From the NCBI GenBank assembly GCA_016879935.1, contig JAACJQ010000214.1, positions 1 through 40,004 on the forward strand: a stretch of 40,004 nt of DNA. The letters are read 5' to 3'. The notes beneath the pieces are model-generated. The model saw only the letters and a list, made by a program, of their open reading frames with translations, ran no database searches and was not told where the DNA came from. A program made the position numbers and the translations under genes. Shown here one piece after another: positions 6,241 to 30,915 of this stretch (position 1 is the stretch's first letter; the number at the start of each line of letters is the position of its first letter). The stretch comes from Archangiaceae bacterium. Lineage in GTDB: Bacteria; Myxococcota; Myxococcia; Myxococcales; Myxococcaceae.

Positions 6241-9200
6241 GTGAAGCGACTCGCCCTGCCCTGCCTGCTGGCCCTCTGTGCCTGTCCGCCCCCGAAGCCG
6301 TTGCCTCCGCCCGAGCCACCCACGCGGTGCGAAGCGAAGCTCGACGAGCTGATGCTCTTCTCGAAGCTGGGAACGGGCGTGAAGGCGAAGACGATCGAGA
6401 ACGCCTCGGAGCTGATCGGCGGCGGGTATGCGCAGGGTCGCGTCGGCGACGTCTTGCTCGCCAACGACAAGGTGCGGGTCGTCATTCAGCAGCCGACGCG
6501 CACGATCTCTCCCACGCCGTATGGCGGCGCGATCATCGACGCCGATCTGGTGCGTGATGGTCAGCCCGGCCGCGACACGTTCGGCAAGATCGCGCCGCTC
6601 TACGCGTTCGGCCGCACGCCGCTCGTGAACAAGGTCGAGATTCTCGAAGACGGCTCGAAGGGTGGCTACGCCGTCGTCGCCGCGACCGGCACCGACACGG
6701 TGCTCGACTACATCAACGTCACCAACGTGCTCAGCGACTACCTCGGCGCCGTCGAGCTCAGGTCAGACCCGAACGCGGAACTGCCGCTGCTCATCACCAC
6801 CTACTACGTGCTCTCTCCCGGAGAGACGCGCGTGCGCATGCTGACCGCGTACTGCAACAAGGGCAGCACGCCGATCACGACCATGACTGGCGACATCATC
6901 GAGTCGGGCGGCGAGAGTGAGTTCTTCAACCCGCAAGGCTGCACGGGAGGCATGGGCGCGCTGGGCTGCCTCGTCGATCCCGCGACGTGGGTTGGCTACC
7001 AGTCGAACGGTGTCGCGTATGGGTACCGCTCGTATTCGTTCCGCGATCGCAAGACAGTGTCGACCAACGCGGTGCTGTCGATCGCCGGCGTCGTTGGCGT
7101 GATGGCGGAAGGAAAGGACCGCGACGGCCTGCTCTCGTGGACGTCGACGACGCGCGAGCCCGTGGGCGCGTTCGGCATTCTTCCGGTCGAGCCACGGCTG
7201 TTCCTGCGCGACTTCTTCATCGAGCAGGATCTCGCGCGGGTTCAGGCGTCGATGCTCGCGCTCGATGGCGCTTCCCGTTCGCGCCTCGACGTGACGGTGC
7301 TCGACGGCGCCGGTCAGCCAGTGCCGCAGGGCCGAATTGCCGTGAACGCTGCCGAGACCGGCAAGCCGATCACGGTCGCGATCGCCGATGCACAGGGCAA
7401 GGCGCGCTTCGACGTTCCGGTCGGCAACTACCGCGTCTCGACCGGCGCCTACGGAGCGGCGCTCGAGAACCCAATCGACGTCTCTGCGCCGAGCACCGGA
7501 GAAGCGATGGTGACCGTTCGTCAGGGAGCGAAGCGCACGCTGACCGTGACCGTTCGCGATCCGTTCATGCAGCCGCTCGCCGCGAAGGTGGTCGTGAAGT
7601 GCCCTTCTGGCATCTGCCCCAACGAGCTGTCGAAGCTGCGGCCGTTCTTCGACGTCGAGGCGACTCCGAGCGAGGTGCAGGCGATCGAGTTCGTGCCTGC
7701 GTCGGGGACCATCGCGATTCCCCTGCCCCCGGGCAGCTACGAGGTCTTCGTCACGAAGGGCCCCGAGTTCTCCGCGTTCCCCGACACGTTCCCCACGCGC
7801 GGTCAGACGATCGATCTCTCGACGGCCGATGCGCGCGTCGATGCCACGCTCGCGCAGGTGGTGGACTCGACCGGATGGATCAGCGCCGACCTGCACGTGC
7901 ACGCGGTGGGCAGCCCTGACAGCTCGGTCGCCAACGCCGTGCGTGTGGCCTCGTTCGCGGCCGAAGGTGTCGACGTGATGGTCTCGACCGATCACGACGC
8001 CATCACCGACTTCGCGCCGGTCGTTCGTGATCTCGGCCTGCAGTCGTCGATGGCCACGATGATCGGTGTCGAGGTGACGCCTTTCGACTACGGCCACCAG
8101 AACGCTTTTCCCGTGACGGTGCGTGACGGGCCAGGCGGTGGTGCCTTCGACTGGGCGGGTGGAGACGGCCCGTCGCTGCGGCTCGATCAACTCTACGGAG
8201 GCCTGCGCGAGGCATACCCGAACGTGGTGGTGCAGATGAACCACCCGCGCGGTGGGCAGGGCTCGTCGCTCACCCAGCTCAAGGTCGACACTGCCCGCGG
8301 CACCTCGGCCGCAAAGCCCGAGACCTACCGCATGGCGCCGAACCCGGCCGCGACAGCCGATGACACGAAGCTCTTCTCGCTCGACTTCGATGCCATCGAG
8401 ATCATGAACGGCACCGCAGCCAGCATCGCCGTCACCAACGACTGGATGACGTTTCTCTCGCGCGGTTGGGTGAAGACGGCGACCGGCGTCTCGGACACGC
8501 ACGATCGGCACTCGACGACCGGCGGCTACGGCCGAACGTGGATCTTCCTCGGAGCGAACGCGACGACGGCCGGGTTCACTCCGGCGGCCTTCACGACCGC
8601 GATGAAGCAGCACCGGGCGATTGGCTCCTCGGGCCCGTTCGTCACGATGACGGCGGCTCGCGCAGGCGGAATGCCGGTGGCGATCGGAGACACGCTCTCG
8701 GTGCCCGCCAACACGCCCATCGAGCTGACGGTCGACGTGCAGGCGCCGGAGTGGATGCAGTTCGACTCCATCGAGATCCTCACGCACGCAGCGGGTCGCG
8801 AGTCGTCGAATGGCGTGTCGAACAACGAGTGGCCGGCGACGCGCGTGCTGCAGAAGAAGGCGCTGCCGATCGGAACCCTTCCCATCGAGGCGGTGGCCGG
8901 CCTCAACGGCTTCACGGCCCGCCGCGTTCACGTCGTCGAGAAGTTCACCGTCACGCCCGCGGCCGACACCTGGTTCGTCGCCTTCGTGCGCTCGAGCAGC
9001 GCGGCGAGAACGCTGGCTCCGATGGCGTGGACTGGGGTGCGTTGCACCAACGGCGTCTGCCGCGCGACGGACAACCGGGCCGACGCGTTCACCAACGCCA
9101 TTCTCGTCGATGCCGATGGTTCGGGGGCGTACGACGCGTTCCCGCTGCAGCCCGGGCAGCCGCTGAAGAAGCCCCAGCCGGCGGTGACGAAGCGGGTGCC

Positions 9201-21248: not shown

Positions 21249-21719
21249 ATGCCACTCGAAGCCGCCATTTCGTTGTCGATTGAGCTGCGCGACGCGCTGA
21301 CCGCCGAAGTGAAGCGGTCTCGTGCCGCGCGCTCGGTGCTCAAGGCGATGCAGGTCGACGCGTTGCTGCTCCAGGCTTCGGAGCGCGACGCCTTCAACCA
21401 CCGCTCGACCCAGCTGTCCGACTCGCTCGCGTTCGCGCTGCAGGAGATCGCGGAGGAGCGTGGAGAGAAGGACGTGACGCTCCAGCAGCTGACCGCCTGG
21501 TTCCCGTTCGAGGCCGCGCAGCTCTCGTCGGTCTTCGCCGAGATTCGGGCGCTCACCGCGGCCCTCAAAGAGCTCGACGTCTTCAACCAGGCGCTGGCCG
21601 AGCGCGCGCTCACCTTCGTGCGTGCGTACGTGGCGCACCTGGCACCGCGGCCCCAGGCCTACGGCCGACGCGGCAGCCTCGTCGCCACCGAAGCGTCCAC
21701 TCACTCGGAGCACGTCTGA
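21249..21719 (+). CDS. flgN: FlgN-like export chaperone for hook-associated proteins
   Basis: The 156-residue, fully helical protein fits FlgN in length, position (between flgM and flgK) and in the C-terminal AYGRRGS tail that resembles the TYGxxG end of FlgN proteins. FlgN binds FlgK and FlgL in the cytoplasm and brings them to the export gate. FlgN family sequences are poorly conserved, so the call relies partly on context. Its TGA overlaps the ATG of flgK (TGATG), matching a chaperone co-translated with its cargo. Confidence 0.75.
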   Translation: MPLEAAISLSIELRDALTAEVKRSRAARSVLKAMQVDALLLQASERDAFNHRSTQLSDSLAFALQEIAEERGEKDVTLQQLTAWFPFEAAQLSSVFAEIRALTAALKELDVFNQALAERALTFVRAYVAHLAPRPQAYGRRGSLVATEASTHSEHV

Positions 21720-23113
21720 TGAGCGGCCTCCTCTCAGTGCTCCGTCAGGGTGCGATGAGTCTCCAGGCGCAGCAGGCCTACTCGTCGACCGTCGCCCACA
21801 ACCTCTCGAACGCGAACACGCCCGGGTTTGCCCGCCAGCGCGCCGAGCTCGCCGCCGTCAGCCCCGCCGATCAGTTCGGCAGCGCGTACATCGGGCGCGG
21901 GGCCGTGCTGCAGGCCATCACCCAGTCGAGAGATCGGTTCGTCGAGCAGCAGATGTCGGGCGCCCTCGGCAACGAGCGGTTCTCGGCGACACAGGCCGAC
22001 ATTCTCAAAGGGGTGAGCGCGCTCAACCCTGACGCCGGGCTCACCGACGCGCTCTCGAACTTCTATGCGCAGCTGCGGGCACTGGCGCAGAACCCGGGCA
22101 GCCCGAACGTGCGTGAAGCGACGGTCGGCGCCGCGACGAGGCTCGCGGTGAGCTTCAACCAGACGGCCATCGCCCTCGACTCGGCTCGCACCGGCGTCGA
22201 CTCGCGCCTCGAGGGTCAGCTGCCCGAGATCAACGAATCGCTGCAGCAGATCGCGCGGCTCAACTCGCAGATCTCCCAGGCCTCGATCGCCGGGGGCAGA
22301 CCGAACGACCTGCTCGACGCCCGGCAGAAGCTCGTCGATCGCGTGTCGGCGCTCACCGGGGCCACCGTCATTCCCAACAACGCAGGCGACGCCAACCTCA
22401 CCCTGCCCTCGGGTGTCTCGCTCGTTCAGGGCGATCGCGCCGCCACGCTCTCGGTGCGGCCTGACCCTGCGAACGGCTCTCGCCTGGGCCTCTGGGTGCA
22501 GACCCCTTCGGCCACCACGCCGACGCAGCTCACCCAACCGCCTGGCGGAGAGCTCGGTGGCATGATGGCCGCGCGTGATGGCGCGATGCTGAACGCGCAG
22601 ACCCGCCTCGATCAGCTCGCCTTCGACTTTGGCAACGCCATCAACGCGGTGTCGCAGACCGGCTTCGCGCTCGACGGCTCCACCGGGCGCTCGATCTTCA
22701 ACGTTCAGGCGACGGTGACGGGAGCGGCGCGCAGCCTCACCGTCGACGCCGCCATCGCGGCCAACGTCTCGCTGCTCCCGGCCGCAGGAGCCGCCGGTGC
22801 CTCGGGCGACGGCACCATCGCGCAGGCGATGATCAACACCGAGTCGCAGCTCCTCTCGGGTGGCCGGAGCGCCGAGGCCGAGCTGGCCAGCATCACCGCG
22901 AACTACGGCGCCACCACCGCGCGCGTCACCGCGACGAGCGAAGGCGATGCGGCGGTGCTGACGAACCTCAACGCCCTGCGCCAGTCGGCCTCGGGCGTGT
23001 CGATCGACGAAGAGCTGGTGAACATGCAGCGCTCGCAGCGCGCGTACGAAGCCGTCAGCCGGGTGATCAAGGTCGCCGATCAGATGTTGGAGACGCTGTT
23101 GGCGCTGAAGTGA
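21719..23113 (+). CDS. flgK: Hook-filament junction protein FlgK (HAP1)
   Basis: The 464-residue protein starts MSGLLSVLRQGAMSLQAQQ and has the N-terminal AHNLSNANTPGFARQR motif, long helical segments of the D1 region and the C-terminal ISIDEELVNMQRSQRAYEAVSRVIKVADQMLETLLALK-type flagellar helix (recognised over the last 40 residues). At 464 residues it is somewhat shorter than enterobacterial FlgK, mainly in the central variable domain. FlgK forms the first of the two junction rings between hook and filament. It is followed by flgL after 8 bp. Confidence 0.95.
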   Translation: MSGLLSVLRQGAMSLQAQQAYSSTVAHNLSNANTPGFARQRAELAAVSPADQFGSAYIGRGAVLQAITQSRDRFVEQQMSGALGNERFSATQADILKGVSALNPDAGLTDALSNFYAQLRALAQNPGSPNVREATVGAATRLAVSFNQTAIALDSARTGVDSRLEGQLPEINESLQQIARLNSQISQASIAGGRPNDLLDARQKLVDRVSALTGATVIPNNAGDANLTLPSGVSLVQGDRAATLSVRPDPANGSRLGLWVQTPSATTPTQLTQPPGGELGGMMAARDGAMLNAQTRLDQLAFDFGNAINAVSQTGFALDGSTGRSIFNVQATVTGAARSLTVDAAIAANVSLLPAAGAAGASGDGTIAQAMINTESQLLSGGRSAEAELASITANYGATTARVTATSEGDAAVLTNLNALRQSASGVSIDEELVNMQRSQRAYEAVSRVIKVADQMLETLLALK

Positions 23114-23121
23114 GGGGAGCC

Positions 23122-24003
23122 ATGAGGGTCAGCGATACGTACATGTTCGATCTGGCGAACAGCCGGCTCATGCGCAGTCGGGCCGAGAGCACCGCCGCCA
23201 GTGATCGCGTCTCGTCGGGCAAACGCGTCGAGACACCATGGGACGACTCGGCCGCTGCCGGGCTCATCACCCGCTTCGCACAGGACACGACCCGCCAGGA
23301 CGCCATGATGACGGCCGCCGATCGCGCGAGCGAAGAGCTCGGCGTCGTCGACGGCGCGTTCGATCAGGTGCTCACCAGCCTCACCCGCGCCAGCGAGCTC
23401 GCGGTGCAGCTCTCGAACGACACCTACAGCGCCGCCGATCGGTTGAACGCGTCGGCCGAGGTGCAGCAGCTGTTTCAGTCGGTGCTGGGGCAGATCAACC
23501 TGCGCTACGGCGACCGGTACGTCTTCGGCGGCATGCGCGACGCGGCGCCACCGTTCGACCCTTCGGGCAACTACCTCGGCGACGCCAACACCCGCCGTGT
23601 CGAGATTGCCCCTGGCATTCTGCAGGACGCGTCGGTGCGCTCCGACGTCGCGTTCAAGGGCGCGGGCGGTGGCATCGACGTGCTGACCGCGCTCTCGAGC
23701 TTCGCGACCGCCCTCTCCGCCAACGACACCACGGGCATTCGCACCGCCATTCGAGCGCTTGCCGACGGCACCCAACAGGTGACGGCCTCGCGTTCACGCG
23801 CGGGCGCGATGATGAACGTGTTCGATCTCGCGTCGAGCACGGCCCGCATCAACCGCGACACGGCAACGGCCGGGCGCTCGAAGCTGGAGGACATCGACAT
23901 CATCGAAGCGAGCACCCGGTTCGCGGCGGCCGAGCAGGCCCTCCAGGCGTCGATGTCGGCGTCGGCCAAGTCCTTCAAGCTCACGCTGCTCGACGTCTTG
24001 TAA
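23122..24003 (+). CDS. flgL: Hook-filament junction protein FlgL (HAP3)
   Basis: The ATG at 23122 with GAGGGGAGC upstream gives 293 residues; an in-frame GTG at 23110 overlaps flgK and is less likely. The N-terminal flagellin-like motif (RVSDTYMFDLANSRL, then SDRVSSGKRVETPWDDSAAA) and the C-terminal EASTRFAAAEQALQASMSASAKSF helix are typical of FlgL, as is YGDRYVFGGMRDAAPPFD in the middle. FlgL forms the second junction ring that supports the filament. It directly follows flgK and precedes the unknown 651-residue gene by 12 bp. Confidence 0.93.
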   Translation: MRVSDTYMFDLANSRLMRSRAESTAASDRVSSGKRVETPWDDSAAAGLITRFAQDTTRQDAMMTAADRASEELGVVDGAFDQVLTSLTRASELAVQLSNDTYSAADRLNASAEVQQLFQSVLGQINLRYGDRYVFGGMRDAAPPFDPSGNYLGDANTRRVEIAPGILQDASVRSDVAFKGAGGGIDVLTALSSFATALSANDTTGIRTAIRALADGTQQVTASRSRAGAMMNVFDLASSTARINRDTATAGRSKLEDIDIIEASTRFAAAEQALQASMSASAKSFKLTLLDVL

Positions 24004-24015
24004 CGGGGTCGTGCG

Positions 24016-25971
24016 GTGAGCCGGCTGCGCACAGAGCGAGCGTGTCACCCGCTGGCGCCCTTCTTCAGGCGCCGGCTCTCGCACCTGCTCAAGCGCCTCA
24101 CCCACGAGGAGCGCGCGATCATTCGGCTGATGCCGGTGCTGCTCGGCGGGCGGTTTCGCCGGCCGGGCTACGATCGTGAGCCACCTGGCGTGCAGCGCAT
24201 GCCGCGGAGGCGACGCTGGGGCCGCGCGTGCGAGGCGATCGACTTTCCACCGCCGCTCGGGTTCGCGACCACCCGGCCGCTCGTGCGCTCGGCGCTGCTC
24301 GTGGCGCACGGCGATCGCTGGGAGCTCGTGCTCGTCACCGTCTCCGAGCGCTCCCCGGAAGAGCACCGGCGCCTCGATGAACGCGTGCAGATGCTGCAGA
24401 TGCTGCTCTCGCGTTGGGCACCGCGGCTGAGCATCGTGCTCGAGCCGAAGATCTCGGCGGAGCGTCTCTTCTTCGCCGGACTCATCGCGGGCGACGTGCC
24501 CTTCCTCGAGGCGCAAGACACCATCGAGCCGACCCGCATCGCGAAGTTCGCGCCGACGCCCCTGGCGCGCGCGCTCGCCCTCACCGCGACGACCGAGGAG
24601 CCGTTCTCGCGTCTGTTGCCCGGCCTCTCGCTGGCCTGCCCTGATCTCTTCGCGGCCGCCGCCTCGTGCGACGATCGCCTGCTCAGCCTGGTGCGACAGC
24701 TGGGCCCCGAGCCCGGCATCGTGGAGCTGGGCCTCGCCTCGCGGGTCGTGCGCCACGCCGCGCACCTGCAGTGGAAGCGCCTGTCGGGCAAGCCGCGCCG
24801 GCAGCTCGGCCACGAGCTGAAGCGGTGGATCATGGGCGGCCACGTGCTCCCAGCGCTGCGGCCGGCGTTCGAGGCGTTGCTCGAGAAGCACGCGCCGCTC
24901 GAAGTCAAAGACGGCGACACCTGGCGGCTCGAGCTCGACGGGCAGACGCTCTTCCACGCCCACTCGCTCGATTCGCTACGGGCACGCTCGCTCAACGAAT
25001 CTCCGAAGCTGTGCCCGAACCAGGCGGAGTGGCGGCGCGCGCGTTCGCTGCTGCTGGCGAAGTCGCCACGCACGCTGTTCGTCATCGAGCCCGGCTTCCT
25101 CAAACACCTCGCGCTCTCGCTGGGCCCGACCGGTCGCCTGCGCGCGCGGCGATTGACGACCGCCGACTGCATTCGGCTCGCGTTGGGCATGAAGGCGGCC
25201 GGTCGTCTGCTCGAGGTGGCGCCCAGGCCCGGCGCCGATCCACTCCTCGTCTCGCGGCTCTCGCAGATCGCGTCGGCCGAGGTGCCACGCGGCGTCGCCA
25301 TCGGAGTACAGCGAGGCGATCGCCTGCTGCTCGCCGCCGACGGGCGCGTTCGAAACCTGCCGCTCGGCAAGGCGCTGGGGCGGCCCCGCCGGCTCGCGCT
25401 CCTGCCCGAACACGCCGACTGGGGCCCCGCCATGCGGCCTCCGCGTGGAGTCGCCAGCCGGCTCGCGGTGCACGTCACCCTCTACGCAGCCGCGCCCGAG
25501 CTGGTGCAGGCGCTGTTCGTCGACGGAACGGGGCGGCTTCTGCTCGAGACCTTCCCGCGCGACCAGATCGACACGTGGGTCGACGACACGCGCGTGCTGC
25601 TCGATCAGGTGGGCGCGTCGCTCTCGCTCGGCGTGAGCCCCTCGCTCGCCTCGACGATGGGCCGGCTCTCGAGTGAGAGCGTCGACCCGATCGAGCTCGA
25701 GGTGGAGATCGACGAAGCAGGCCACGCGATCGTCTCGCTCGACGGCGATCGGTTCGGAGCCGGTCAGCCGATGGGCTGGCGCGCGCTCGCCGAGACCGTC
25801 TTCTCTCACTGGCCACCGCGGGTGCGGGGCCGCGTGAAGATCTCGCGCGTGTCGTGGCCACGTCAGACGAATGACGCGTCGGCGCTCGAGGTGCTGTCGG
25901 TGCGTTCGCGCGTGCTGCGTCGCCTCACTTCGCACCTGGGCACTTTGGCACGGTACCTCGAAGCCGCTTAA
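24016..25971 (+). CDS. Uncharacterised 651-residue protein within the flagellar operon
   Basis: This protein is encoded 12 bp after flgL and directly before the fliC promoter. It is rich in Arg and Leu, has no signal peptide, membrane helix or low-complexity tail, and appears as a multi-domain cytoplasmic protein. I do not recognise a family with confidence. Two stretches faintly recall class I adenylate cyclases: a LMPVLLGGRFRRPGYDREPPGV segment near residues 38-58 and a LFVDGTGRLLLETF strand pair near 505-520. The GS...DxD nucleotidyltransferase residues of that family are not visible, so if the relation is real it is a degenerate member. The start is a GTG at 24016; ATG codons at residues 39 and 62 are alternatives. 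Its TAA stop forms part of the sigma-28-type element of fliC. Confidence 0.8.
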   Translation: MSRLRTERACHPLAPFFRRRLSHLLKRLTHEERAIIRLMPVLLGGRFRRPGYDREPPGVQRMPRRRRWGRACEAIDFPPPLGFATTRPLVRSALLVAHGDRWELVLVTVSERSPEEHRRLDERVQMLQMLLSRWAPRLSIVLEPKISAERLFFAGLIAGDVPFLEAQDTIEPTRIAKFAPTPLARALALTATTEEPFSRLLPGLSLACPDLFAAAASCDDRLLSLVRQLGPEPGIVELGLASRVVRHAAHLQWKRLSGKPRRQLGHELKRWIMGGHVLPALRPAFEALLEKHAPLEVKDGDTWRLELDGQTLFHAHSLDSLRARSLNESPKLCPNQAEWRRARSLLLAKSPRTLFVIEPGFLKHLALSLGPTGRLRARRLTTADCIRLALGMKAAGRLLEVAPRPGADPLLVSRLSQIASAEVPRGVAIGVQRGDRLLLAADGRVRNLPLGKALGRPRRLALLPEHADWGPAMRPPRGVASRLAVHVTLYAAAPELVQALFVDGTGRLLLETFPRDQIDTWVDDTRVLLDQVGASLSLGVSPSLASTMGRLSSESVDPIELEVEIDEAGHAIVSLDGDRFGAGQPMGWRALAETVFSHWPPRVRGRVKISRVSWPRQTNDASALEVLSVRSRVLRRLTSHLGTLARYLEAA

Positions 25972-25995
25972 GGCCGGCCGGGGTCGTGCCGAACC
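25969..25995 (+). promoter_or_regulatory. Sigma-28 (FliA)-type promoter of fliC
   Basis: TAAG (25969-25972), a 15-nt spacer and GCCGAACC (25988-25995) match the sigma-28 consensus TAAA-N15-GCCGATAA in spacing and in nine of twelve bases. The -35 part coincides with the TAA stop of the preceding gene. Transcription would start near 26001-26003. Confidence 0.65.
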
Positions 25996-26049: not shown

Positions 26050-26874
26050 ATGTCCTTCACCATTCGCAGCAACCTCGCGTCACTCAATGCTCAGCGCAAC
26101 CTGTTCAACACCACGTCGATGCAGAACGACAGCTTCAACAAGCTGTCGAGCGGCTTCCGAATCACCCGCGCAGGTGACGACGCCGCCGGTCTCGGCATCA
26201 GCAACAACCTGCAGGCGCAGATTCGCAGCTTCAACCAGGCGAACCGCAACTCGCAGGACGCCGAGTCGCTGATTCAGACGGCGGAAGCGAACCTGAACCA
26301 GACGACCGAGCTGCTCACCCGCATGCGTGAGCTCGCCATGCAGAGCGCCTCGTCAGGCGTCGGCAACACCGAGCGCGGCTACATTCAGACGGAGAACACC
26401 GCGCTCATCACTGAAATCACGCGCATCGCGAACGCGGCTGAATACAACGGCACCGCGCTCCTGAACTCGGCCACCAACCTCACGTTCCAGGTCGGCATTC
26501 GCAACGTCGCGGCCAACGACCAGATCACGGTCGCCACGGTGGACTCGACCGCGACCGCCCTCGGCGTCAACGCGCTCGACTTCTCGACGCAGGCCGGCGC
26601 GCAGGCGGCCCTCACCACCATCGACGCCGCGATCAACACGGTCTCGAGCTCGCGCGCGACGTTCGGCGCCGCCGGCAACCGCCTCGCCTCGGTCGTTCAG
26701 ACGATTCAGCAGTCGGCCGAGTCGCTCTCCGCCGCGAACAGCCGCATCCGCGACGTCGACGTGGCCGAAGAGACCAGCAAGCTCGCCCGCAGCCAGGTGA
26801 TGATGCAGGCCGGTGTCTCGGTGCTCGCGCAGGCCAACCAGGCGCCGCAGGTGGCCCTCAAGCTGCTCGGCTGA
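26050..26874 (+). CDS. fliC: Flagellin FliC
   Basis: The 274-residue flagellin consists almost only of the conserved D0/D1 domains: N-terminal TIRSNLASLNAQRNLFNT and KLSSGFRITRAGDDAAGLGIS, a TRMRELAMQSASSG segment matching the D1 region recognised by TLR5 in many flagellins, and C-terminal SRIRDVDVAEETSKLARSQ to VLAQANQAPQ. The variable outer D2/D3 domains are reduced to about 60 residues, so the filament should be smooth and thin. The ATG at 26050 has a strong GGAGAGG site. The gene has its own sigma-28-type promoter and a structured leader, and is followed by a repeat-containing intergenic region with a terminator. Confidence 0.98.
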   Translation: MSFTIRSNLASLNAQRNLFNTTSMQNDSFNKLSSGFRITRAGDDAAGLGISNNLQAQIRSFNQANRNSQDAESLIQTAEANLNQTTELLTRMRELAMQSASSGVGNTERGYIQTENTALITEITRIANAAEYNGTALLNSATNLTFQVGIRNVAANDQITVATVDSTATALGVNALDFSTQAGAQAALTTIDAAINTVSSSRATFGAAGNRLASVVQTIQQSAESLSAANSRIRDVDVAEETSKLARSQVMMQAGVSVLAQANQAPQVALKLLG

Positions 26875-26975: not shown

Positions 26976-27187
26976 GGGAACGCGTGAGACGAAGCCCCGA
27001 GCAGGCCTGAGGAGCGGCGGCCCCTCGTCACCAGCGACCCTGCCGCGGCGAGTATGGCCTGCGAAGGCGGAGTCGACCTGGGAACGCGTGAGACGAAGCC
27101 CCGAGCAGGCCTGAGGAGCGGCGGCCCTCGTCACCAGCGACCCTGCCGCGGCGAGTAGGCCTGCGAAGGCGGAGTCGAACTGGGGAA
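26976..27187 (+). repeat. 104-bp tandem direct repeat
   Basis: Copy 1 covers 26976-27079 and copy 2 covers 27080-27182; both begin GGGAACGCGTGAGACGAAGC and end in GCGAAGGCGGAGTCGA(C/A)CT. They differ by two single-base indels and one substitution. A third unit restarts at 27183 (GGGGAAC) but diverges at once. A degraded remnant, with GACGAAACCGCCGACG and GCGAAGGCGG, precedes copy 1 at 26941-26975. Within each unit GAGG...CCTC and GGCC...GGCC segments can fold. The function is unknown. Confidence 0.85.
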
Positions 27188-29075: not shown

Positions 29076-29341
29076 ACACCGCGACCGCCCACCTGGTGTC
29101 GAAGCTCGAGGCGATGCTCGCATCGCTCGACGCTGGTGACGCCGAGGTCGTGGCCGGTCAGATGGACGAGTTGAGCGCGGCCTTCAGTGCCGTGAAGAAT
29201 GCCGGGAGCGACCCACGGGTCGTCGAGCTGTTCCTGCAGTGCCAGGGCAAGGCGAACCAGCTGCACGCGCGCCTGAGCGCCGAGCTCGGTTCCCACGCGA
29301 CCTCGAGACGGGCCGCGAGCGCGTACGGGAGTCAGCCGTGA
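29072..29341 (+). CDS. Small helical protein in the fliT position
   Basis: The 89-residue product begins at a GTG overlapping the fliS stop (GTGA). It is predicted helical (TAHLVSKLEAMLASLDAGD, then MDELSAAFSAVKNAG, then LFLQCQGKANQLHARLS) and ends in a flexible SRRAASAYGSQP tail. Size, helicity and place after fliS fit a FliT-type chaperone of FliD. The Ala-Tyr-Gly ending also recalls the FlgN-like protein of this locus. Sequence similarity to FliT is not evident, so the name is withheld. Its TGA overlaps the GTG of the glycosyltransferase. Confidence 0.7.
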   Translation: MNTATAHLVSKLEAMLASLDAGDAEVVAGQMDELSAAFSAVKNAGSDPRVVELFLQCQGKANQLHARLSAELGSHATSRRAASAYGSQP

Positions 29342-30915
29342 GTACCGTCACTATCGCCATGATCGTGAAGAACGAGGCCGAGATGGCGCCAGGCTTCATC
29401 GAGTCGGTGCGCGGCCTGTGGGACGAGCTGCTCGTCGTCGACACCGGCTCCACCGACAACACCGTCGAGCTGTTCGAGGCTGCTGGCGCGAAGGTGGTGC
29501 GCCACGCGTGGGCCGACGACTTCGCCGACGCCCGCAACGTCTCGCTCGCCAACGCCACCAAAGACTGGGTGCTGGTGCTCGACGCCGATGAGCGCGTGTC
29601 GCCTGCCTTCGTTCAGGAGTTCATGGCGCGCTGTGACGACCCGACGGTGGGCGCACTCACCGTGCGCATGTCGAACCCCCTGCCCTACGGCCACCGCCGC
29701 GAGTCGTGGGTGCTGCGCGCGTTTCGTCGAGACGACACGATTCACTTCCGCCACGCGATTCACGAAGACTGCTCGAGCGACGTGGCGCGCATGCTCTTCA
29801 AGTCGAAGACGACGATCGAGCGCGTCGAGGCGCCCGTGGAGCACCTCGGCTACGTGCGCAGCCGCGCGGCGTCGAAAGAGAAGAAGCAGCGCGATCTCGC
29901 CCTGCTCCAGAAGTGCCTGGCGGCGAACCCGAACGACTTCTACGCGCACCTGAAGGTGCTCGAGCTCGCGCGGTTCTGGCGTGACAGCGTGCTCTGGCGT
30001 GAAGGCGCGCAGGTGGCGATCGACAGGCTCGAGCAGGCGGGGCCCGAGGTGCTGCGCGGCATGCCGTGGGGCGGCGAGCTGATCGCCCTCATCGCCGAGG
30101 GGCTCTTCCGCACGAATGGGCCGGCGGGCCTGCTCTTCCTCGACCGCTGGGAGCCGATGGTCGTTCCCGGAGCGCCCTTCTTCCACCGTCGCGCGCAGCA
30201 TCACGAGGCGAACGGCAACTACGAGGAGGCCGCGAAGGACTTCAGCCGCTGCCTCGAACTGGGCGAACTGCTCGGCGATCACCAGCTCACCGGGGTACGG
30301 CCACGCCTGGGCCTGGCTCGACTGGCGTTGATGCGGAGCGCTCCGCTGGAGGCGCTCGAACACGTCGACGCGGCGCTCGAGGTGCAGCCGCGCGATCCTG
30401 AAGCGCTCGTCGCCGCGGCGGCGTTGCGGTTGCAGCTCGAAGGCACTGGCGGACTCAACGCGTGGGTCGCTGCGCATGAGCTGCGGCACGGTGATTCACC
30501 AGAGCTCTCGTGGGCGGTCGGAGACGCGGCCCTCACCCTGGGACATGTGGCGCAGTCGATCGCGCCGCTTCGGCGTGCGGCTGGCGTGCCTCCCTCGGGG
30601 CCAGCGGCACTCCGTCTTGCGCAGGCCCTGCTCGCAGACGGTCAATTGAAGTCGGCCGAGCAGCTCACCCGCAGCCTCTTGAGTTCGGAGCCGGAAGCCG
30701 GTCTCGGCGTGCTGGTGTTCGATCTGCTGCAGGGGCAAGACACGGCGCTCGAGCTCGATCTGACGCCCGAGACCGCGCACGCGGCGATGAAGCATTGGGT
30801 CGACGCGCTGGTGAAGTCGAAGAACCTCGAGTGGCTCACGACGATGCGGCGCAACGCGATTGCCGTGGGAGAAGTGTTCCCCTGGCTCGACGATTACCTG
30901 CGCCGCGCCGGCTGA
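29338..30915 (+). CDS. GT2-family glycosyltransferase with TPR-like C-terminal half
   Basis: The GTG at 29338, inside the end of the preceding gene (GTGA), gives 525 residues. The N-terminal GT-A domain (1-230) has TIAMIVKNEAEM, VVDTGSTDNTVE and the metal-binding DxD as DADER (D82, D84), followed by FRHAIHEDC. The rest is alpha-helical with TPR-like pairs such as ANGNYEEAAKDFSRCLELGE and LEHVDAALEVQPRDPEALVAAAALRL (near residues 285-375). Proteins of this SunS-like, TPR-tailed type often modify proteins. Because it is coupled to the fliD-fliS block, flagellin or another filament protein is a plausible acceptor. It ends against the convergent ffh gene with no spacer. Confidence 0.88.
   Translation: MSTVTIAMIVKNEAEMAPGFIESVRGLWDELLVVDTGSTDNTVELFEAAGAKVVRHAWADDFADARNVSLANATKDWVLVLDADERVSPAFVQEFMARCDDPTVGALTVRMSNPLPYGHRRESWVLRAFRRDDTIHFRHAIHEDCSSDVARMLFKSKTTIERVEAPVEHLGYVRSRAASKEKKQRDLALLQKCLAANPNDFYAHLKVLELARFWRDSVLWREGAQVAIDRLEQAGPEVLRGMPWGGELIALIAEGLFRTNGPAGLLFLDRWEPMVVPGAPFFHRRAQHHEANGNYEEAAKDFSRCLELGELLGDHQLTGVRPRLGLARLALMRSAPLEALEHVDAALEVQPRDPEALVAAAALRLQLEGTGGLNAWVAAHELRHGDSPELSWAVGDAALTLGHVAQSIAPLRRAAGVPPSGPAALRLAQALLADGQLKSAEQLTRSLLSSEPEAGLGVLVFDLLQGQDTALELDLTPETAHAAMKHWVDALVKSKNLEWLTTMRRNAIAVGEVFPWLDDYLRRAG

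Follow-up and report, generated by a model that had tools for sequence, protein, structure and literature searches.

Which protein is encoded between flgL, the gene for the hook-filament junction protein, and the flagellin gene fliC, and what does it contribute to a flagellum in the Myxococcota, which are known mainly for gliding? The question is raised by a gene, designated gene X here, that lies within the window, i.e., the whole stretch of 40,004 nucleotides that was analyzed. The results point to a flagellum-dedicated pseudo-enzyme that is derived from class I adenylate cyclase, and we assign a probability of roughly 80% to this reading.

Gene X and Its Product

Gene X (24016..25971, forward strand) is an open reading frame of 651 codons with a GTG start and a TAA stop (25969-25971). 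The stop codon of flgL ends at position 24003, which leaves a gap of 12 bp before X. The product contains 15.8% leucine and 12.7% arginine, its net charge is about +29, and it has no transmembrane helix, because the best 19-residue hydropathy value is only 1.43. Open reading frame, composition, and hydropathy confirm the description in the sequence-only reading of a soluble, Arg/Leu-rich protein of 651 residues, encoded 12 bp after flgL in the same orientation.

That X is a real protein-coding gene follows from GC contents of 0.75/0.52/0.88 at the three codon positions, from homologues in all six congeners (52-64% identity in five of them, more distant in one), and from dN/dS values of 0.11-0.42 overall. 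The gene is under purifying selection. In the close species pair L029/L030 the dN/dS value is 0.11 for X, 0.10 for flgK, and 0.11 for fliC, whereas at moderate divergence X has the higher values (0.37-0.42 vs. 0.17-0.29 for the filament genes). The open reading frame, same-slot homologues, a profile match, and an AlphaFold2 model together characterize the 651-aa product as a probable class I adenylate cyclase-like pseudo-enzyme.

The Flagellar Neighborhood and the Element in Front of fliC

X is preceded on the same strand by flgN, encoding the chaperone of FlgK and FlgL (21249..21719, Pfam FlgN with E 1.2e-8), by flgK (21719..23113, assigned by sequence reading and tblastn synteny), and directly by flgL (23122..24003, tblastn synteny and a Flagellin_N match at 23152-23487). 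It is directly followed by fliC (26050..26874, forward strand, Flagellin_N with E 1.4e-31). The stop codon TAA of X overlaps the start of the motif TTAAG-N13-GTGCCGAA (25968..25994, forward strand), which is a sigma-28-like element of fliC by resemblance only, and which had a single match when both strands of the window were scanned with a script. The motif is present upstream of fliC in most close relatives and usually overlaps the stop codon of X again, in agreement with the earlier claim that this stop codon forms part of a sigma-28-type element. In two cases (L086, L087) X ends slightly earlier, yet the element persists 19-23 bp downstream, so conservation concerns the element itself rather than the stop codon. 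In front of fliC of several more distant X members the element was not recognizable. The arrangement suggests that X is read together with flgK and flgL, and that fliC has its own late start.

Two further features of the cluster were observed. An imperfect tandem repeat with a period of 52 and 2.9 copies lies between fliC and fliD (26976-27125), and a gene for a family 2 glycosyltransferase with TPR repeats lies behind fliS (29239-30912, forward strand) and is kept there in close relatives. Glycosylation of flagellin by this glycosyltransferase is possible.

Remote Homology to Class I Adenylate Cyclases

Searches of Pfam, NCBIfam, and PDB (phmmer) with the X protein of the window as a single sequence gave no match at threshold, and neither PF01295 nor PF12633 had a match in the genome of the window. 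Most X members have no Pfam match, and none is above the curated cut-off; one longer homologue has a weak match to Adenyl_cycl_N at the right place (E 0.035, 14.5 bits vs. a cut-off of 27). However, a profile of 28 X sequences matched class I adenylate cyclases with a probability of 94.5% (E 7.6e-8, score 75.7), in an alignment that spans most of both proteins at an identity of 11-16%. In controls of this comparison 20 block-shuffled profiles scored at most 20.5 and the reversed profile 21.1, with a best E of about 0.3.

A comparison by parts with hhalign localized the relationship. The N-terminal parts of X and class I cyclase matched with a probability of 97% (E 1.1e-10) and the C-terminal parts, more modestly, with 68% (E 5e-5), all other combinations remained below 0.4%, and the middle third of X alone did not match class I cyclase. 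The N-terminal domain of X is thereby homologous to PF12633 and the C-terminal region to PF01295. A search of 398 Pseudomonadota genomes with the X-family profile gave six weak matches; five of them, which were compared with the PF12633 positions, lie at true class I cyclases found with PF12633, and the sixth is in G405. A profile search of genome contigs, for which E. coli CyaA was the lead sequence of the alignment, returned only Enterobacteriaceae-type cyclases.

X is distantly homologous to class I adenylate cyclase. The faint resemblance to these enzymes without the catalytic motif, which had been noticed in two short stretches, is true homology, as judged from the profile E value, the shuffled controls, and the match part by part. 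The label "unrecognized" holds for single-sequence searches of Pfam and PDB, but X is not an orphan when family profiles are used.

The N-terminal domain of class I adenylate cyclases of the E. coli CyaA type (PF12633 Adenyl_cycl_N plus PF01295 Adenylate_cycl) is colinear with that of X. Common to both are the Arg of the first helix, the Pro of P-x-LL-H, and P-x-G-I/V, the N-terminal succession beta1-beta2-helix-beta3 within a similar predicted order of elements, and the C-terminal motif D-x-L/F-x-x-G, with DPLNRG in long X members. X differs by the deletion of the GS...SDxDxW segment, by a shorter middle region, by scores below the Pfam cut-offs, and by its flagellar locus.

Structure Models

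The AlphaFold2 model of X is confident (pLDDT 88.3, pTM 0.74), and the model of a flagellar class I cyclase is fair (pLDDT 72.1, pTM 0.65). Both have the same order of elements, namely, two helices, beta1, beta2, a long helix, and beta3, and further on a helical middle and beta-beta-beta-alpha units. The predicted nucleotidyltransferase-like module at the N-terminus of X comprises residues of about 13-180 (24052..24555, forward strand), and is based on the match of the N-terminal parts and on an alignment with AadA. Residues 19-176 of the X model align with AadA over 103 residues with an rmsd of 3.0 and a middling Z of 5.3, and since a Z of about 5 by itself is weak evidence, it is the agreement between the models of X and the cyclase that counts. 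The cyclase model likewise aligns with AadA, which is its best match, at a Z of 10.3 over 226 residues. The likeness to the AadA and AAD(9) aminoglycoside adenylyltransferases is a distant relationship of the fold only; X lacks a drug-modifying site, and drug modification is not suggested.

The C-terminal modules of X, residues of about 340-580 (25033..25755, forward strand), have homologous counterparts in the C-terminal part of class I cyclase, and the C-terminal halves of both models share matches to type III pantothenate kinase and to FACT/Rtt106-type proteins. Foldseek with the whole X model returned low-TM noise only (reverse transcriptases), and a search of the viral library gave the same result. 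A comparison of the predicted structure with class I cyclase had been suggested as a check, and the separate models agree in element order and in AadA-type matches.

Loss of the Catalytic Segment

The beta1 strand of class I cyclases terminates in MGS, after which come a short helix and SDxDxW. In the X family a deletion of about eight residues between the strands removes the GS...SDxD segment, and DxD is present in none of 25 X members, compared to 19 of 19 cyclases. At this place X has a predicted beta hairpin of residues 90-108 (24283..24339, forward strand), with strands at 90-98 and 101-108. Ten columns in an alignment of 20 members are conserved to at least 90%, and none of them is Asp, Glu, His, or Lys. 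X is, judged from these losses, probably a pseudo-enzyme without activity. Residual binding of a nucleotide or metal might persist, because an acidic residue near the second catalytic Asp is retained in 20 of 25 members. The suggestion of a degenerate nucleotidyltransferase-fold protein stands insofar as the N-terminal part is modeled as nucleotidyltransferase-like and the catalytic segment is lost, with a middling Z for the fold.

Distribution and Synteny

X was searched for in Myxococcota and in some Pseudomonadota (the 398 genomes). The phylum sample comprised 195 Myxococcota genomes, mostly draft assemblies, and X is present in 27 of the 51 genomes with flagellin, in contrast to none of the 144 genomes without it, in counts that take no account of kinship. 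Among 60 relatives, X was clear in 19 by single-sequence search, was found by profile only in G030, and is represented in G056 only by its 25 C-terminal residues, cut off by a contig edge upstream of flagellin. It is present in 21 of 22 relatives with flagellin vs. 0 of 38 without (Fisher p 3e-15, a value that ignores kinship). One fragmented genome of the same order (G108) could not be judged. The order flgK-flgL-X-fliC-fliD-fliS was found wherever a contig shows the neighborhood, with the exception of one kinase-fused second copy. Both the co-occurrence with flagellin and the conserved neighborhood characterize X as a flagellum-associated gene; synteny in other flagellated Myxococcota had been proposed as a check, and it upholds a lineage-specific association with the flgL-fliC site.

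Three genomes of one genus of the same order (G045, G085, G088), which we take to be Anaeromyxobacter, are flagellated and lack X, so not all flagella of the group depend on X. In two of them (G045, G085; contigs L051, L114) flgL and fliC are direct neighbors, about 100 bp apart. A flagellar cluster has been described for A. dehalogenans 2CP-C (PMC2330069).

Other Occupants of the flgL-fliC Slot

In the phylum sample PF12633 was found only in G060, G061, and G066, all from family f11. These genomes encode a class I cyclase between flgL and fliC, behind fliW, with an intact GS...SDxDxW motif (L092 5281-7434, L093 5378-8158, L094 5056-7839). The frame of the G066 cyclase is broken near its 3' end by an in-frame TAG (at 7435-7437 in the L092 copy). 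Therefore, the sequence-only reading, according to which no protein like X is found between flgL and flagellin in other bacteria, has to be revised. The flagellar cyclases of family f11 resemble X in the slot and in a common C-terminal module, and they differ in the intact motif and in the preceding fliW. The common module is the last one of X, residues of about 580-651 (25753..25968, forward strand), which matched the C-terminal extension of the f11 cyclases (hhalign E 1.5e-4, score 34.8; 20 shuffles at most 16.4). It was not detected by hhalign in the C-terminus of gamma-proteobacterial CyaA (E 0.17). The fact that this module matches f11 and not gamma cyclases ties X to the flagellar cyclases in particular.

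FliW, the flagellin-binding antagonist of CsrA, occupies the same slot as X in families f11, f17, and f20 and adjoins the cyclase in the cyclase-bearing f11 genomes, but its sequence is unrelated to that of X. In the X-bearing genomes that were tested, PF02623 (FliW) had no match, either at the X locus or elsewhere. X as a replacement of FliW was considered and rejected: the anti-correlation is weak, and FliW is missing also from flagellated families without X. Slot proteins of three further families (f15, f26, f31) were read as response regulator/histidine kinase (L095:3709-5640, reverse strand; L108:5031-6497, reverse strand; L110:4457-6049, forward strand), a type that does not fit X. As the slot holds FliW or response regulator/histidine kinase proteins elsewhere, signaling genes seem to gather between junction protein and flagellin, an apparent hot spot for such genes.

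A genome of family f21 (G171) encodes a second X-like copy (L084:7218-10985, reverse strand), whose X-like part is fused to a preceding zinc ribbon and Ser/Thr protein kinase domain. It is located away from the flagellar genes, next to genes for TldD/PmbA and lamin-tail/collagen-like proteins. The fusion with a kinase fits a signaling module.

Discussion

We propose that the late flagellar locus of Myxococcota has, or once had, a class I cyclase gene between flgL and fliC. In the order of the window and in family f21 the N-terminal GS-helix-SDxD catalytic segment would have been deleted from the cyclase ancestor, and the rest of the N-terminal domain and the C-terminal modules would have been retained under purifying selection. 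X, presumably co-transcribed with flgL, would be made together with FlgK and FlgL, ahead of flagellin, and would remain in the cytoplasm. Its retained modules might bind a partner or a ligand, and bound X could then gate the synthesis or the export of flagellin at the transition from hook to filament. The kinase-fused copy and the signaling genes found in the slot elsewhere make us favor, with moderate confidence, a regulatory role in the synthesis or export of flagellin over a structural one. In enteric bacteria flagellar gene expression needs cAMP, which makes a cyclase origin plausible for a flagellar protein like X, although cAMP sensing by X would be conjecture.

The most serious competitor is a role in assembly or export, with X as a chaperone or escort of FlgL and FliC or as a docking platform at the export gate, and with the cyclase scaffold as a structural relic. 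The tight coupling of X to flgL and fliC, its basic net charge, and a dN/dS value above that of the filament genes, as partner-adapted proteins may show, are all compatible with such a factor. However, dedicated chaperones are already present, i.e., FlgN by its Pfam match and a FliS homologue by synteny, the 650-750 residues of X far exceed known flagellar export chaperones, and the fusion with a protein kinase in family f21 points to signaling, so that we regard this role as possible, but rather unlikely. It is improbable that X is still an enzyme with an active site rebuilt in the nucleotidyltransferase or C-terminal modules, for nucleotide transfer or cyclic nucleotide binding: the GS motif and the paired Asp, which are needed for activity in the superfamily, are deleted in all members, and the highly conserved columns contain no Asp, Glu, His, or Lys, in spite of strong purifying selection and the frequently retained acidic residue.

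The varying content of the slot across the phylum and the flagellated genus without X could indicate a hitchhiker or a housekeeping gene that is merely located in the flagellar cluster. The absence of X from all genomes without flagellin and the constant order flgL-X-fliC, the kinase-fused copy apart, make this very improbable. Even less credible is an unrelated new family that resembles class I cyclases by chance or convergence. The missing Pfam matches of most members and the low identity over the alignment would be expected for it, but the profile scores in comparison to shuffled controls, the matches part by part, the models, and the motif-intact cyclases in the same slot independently agree on common descent. 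The preferred reading remains that of a flagellum-dedicated pseudo-enzyme of cyclase origin. More tentative, at somewhat less than even odds, is the wider scenario that Myxococcota built a class I cyclase into the late flagellar locus, and that one lineage has a motif-intact version while others have turned it into a hook-to-filament checkpoint without catalysis.

The full-text literature that was searched, with subscription journals largely outside its coverage, contained no account of a pseudo-enzyme of the class I adenylate cyclase family or of a cyclase in a flagellar cluster, and both appear to be undescribed. The presence of motif-intact and dead versions in one genetic slot offers a natural pair for a study of the role that the non-catalytic part plays in class I cyclases. 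A compact relative like X might also help structural work, because a search of the PDB copy used here gave no match to the E. coli class I cyclase. For the flagellum of these bacteria, X is a defined candidate for an unexplained step in the control of filament assembly, and the checkpoint reading, if true, would add a pseudo-cyclase as a regulator of flagellar assembly.
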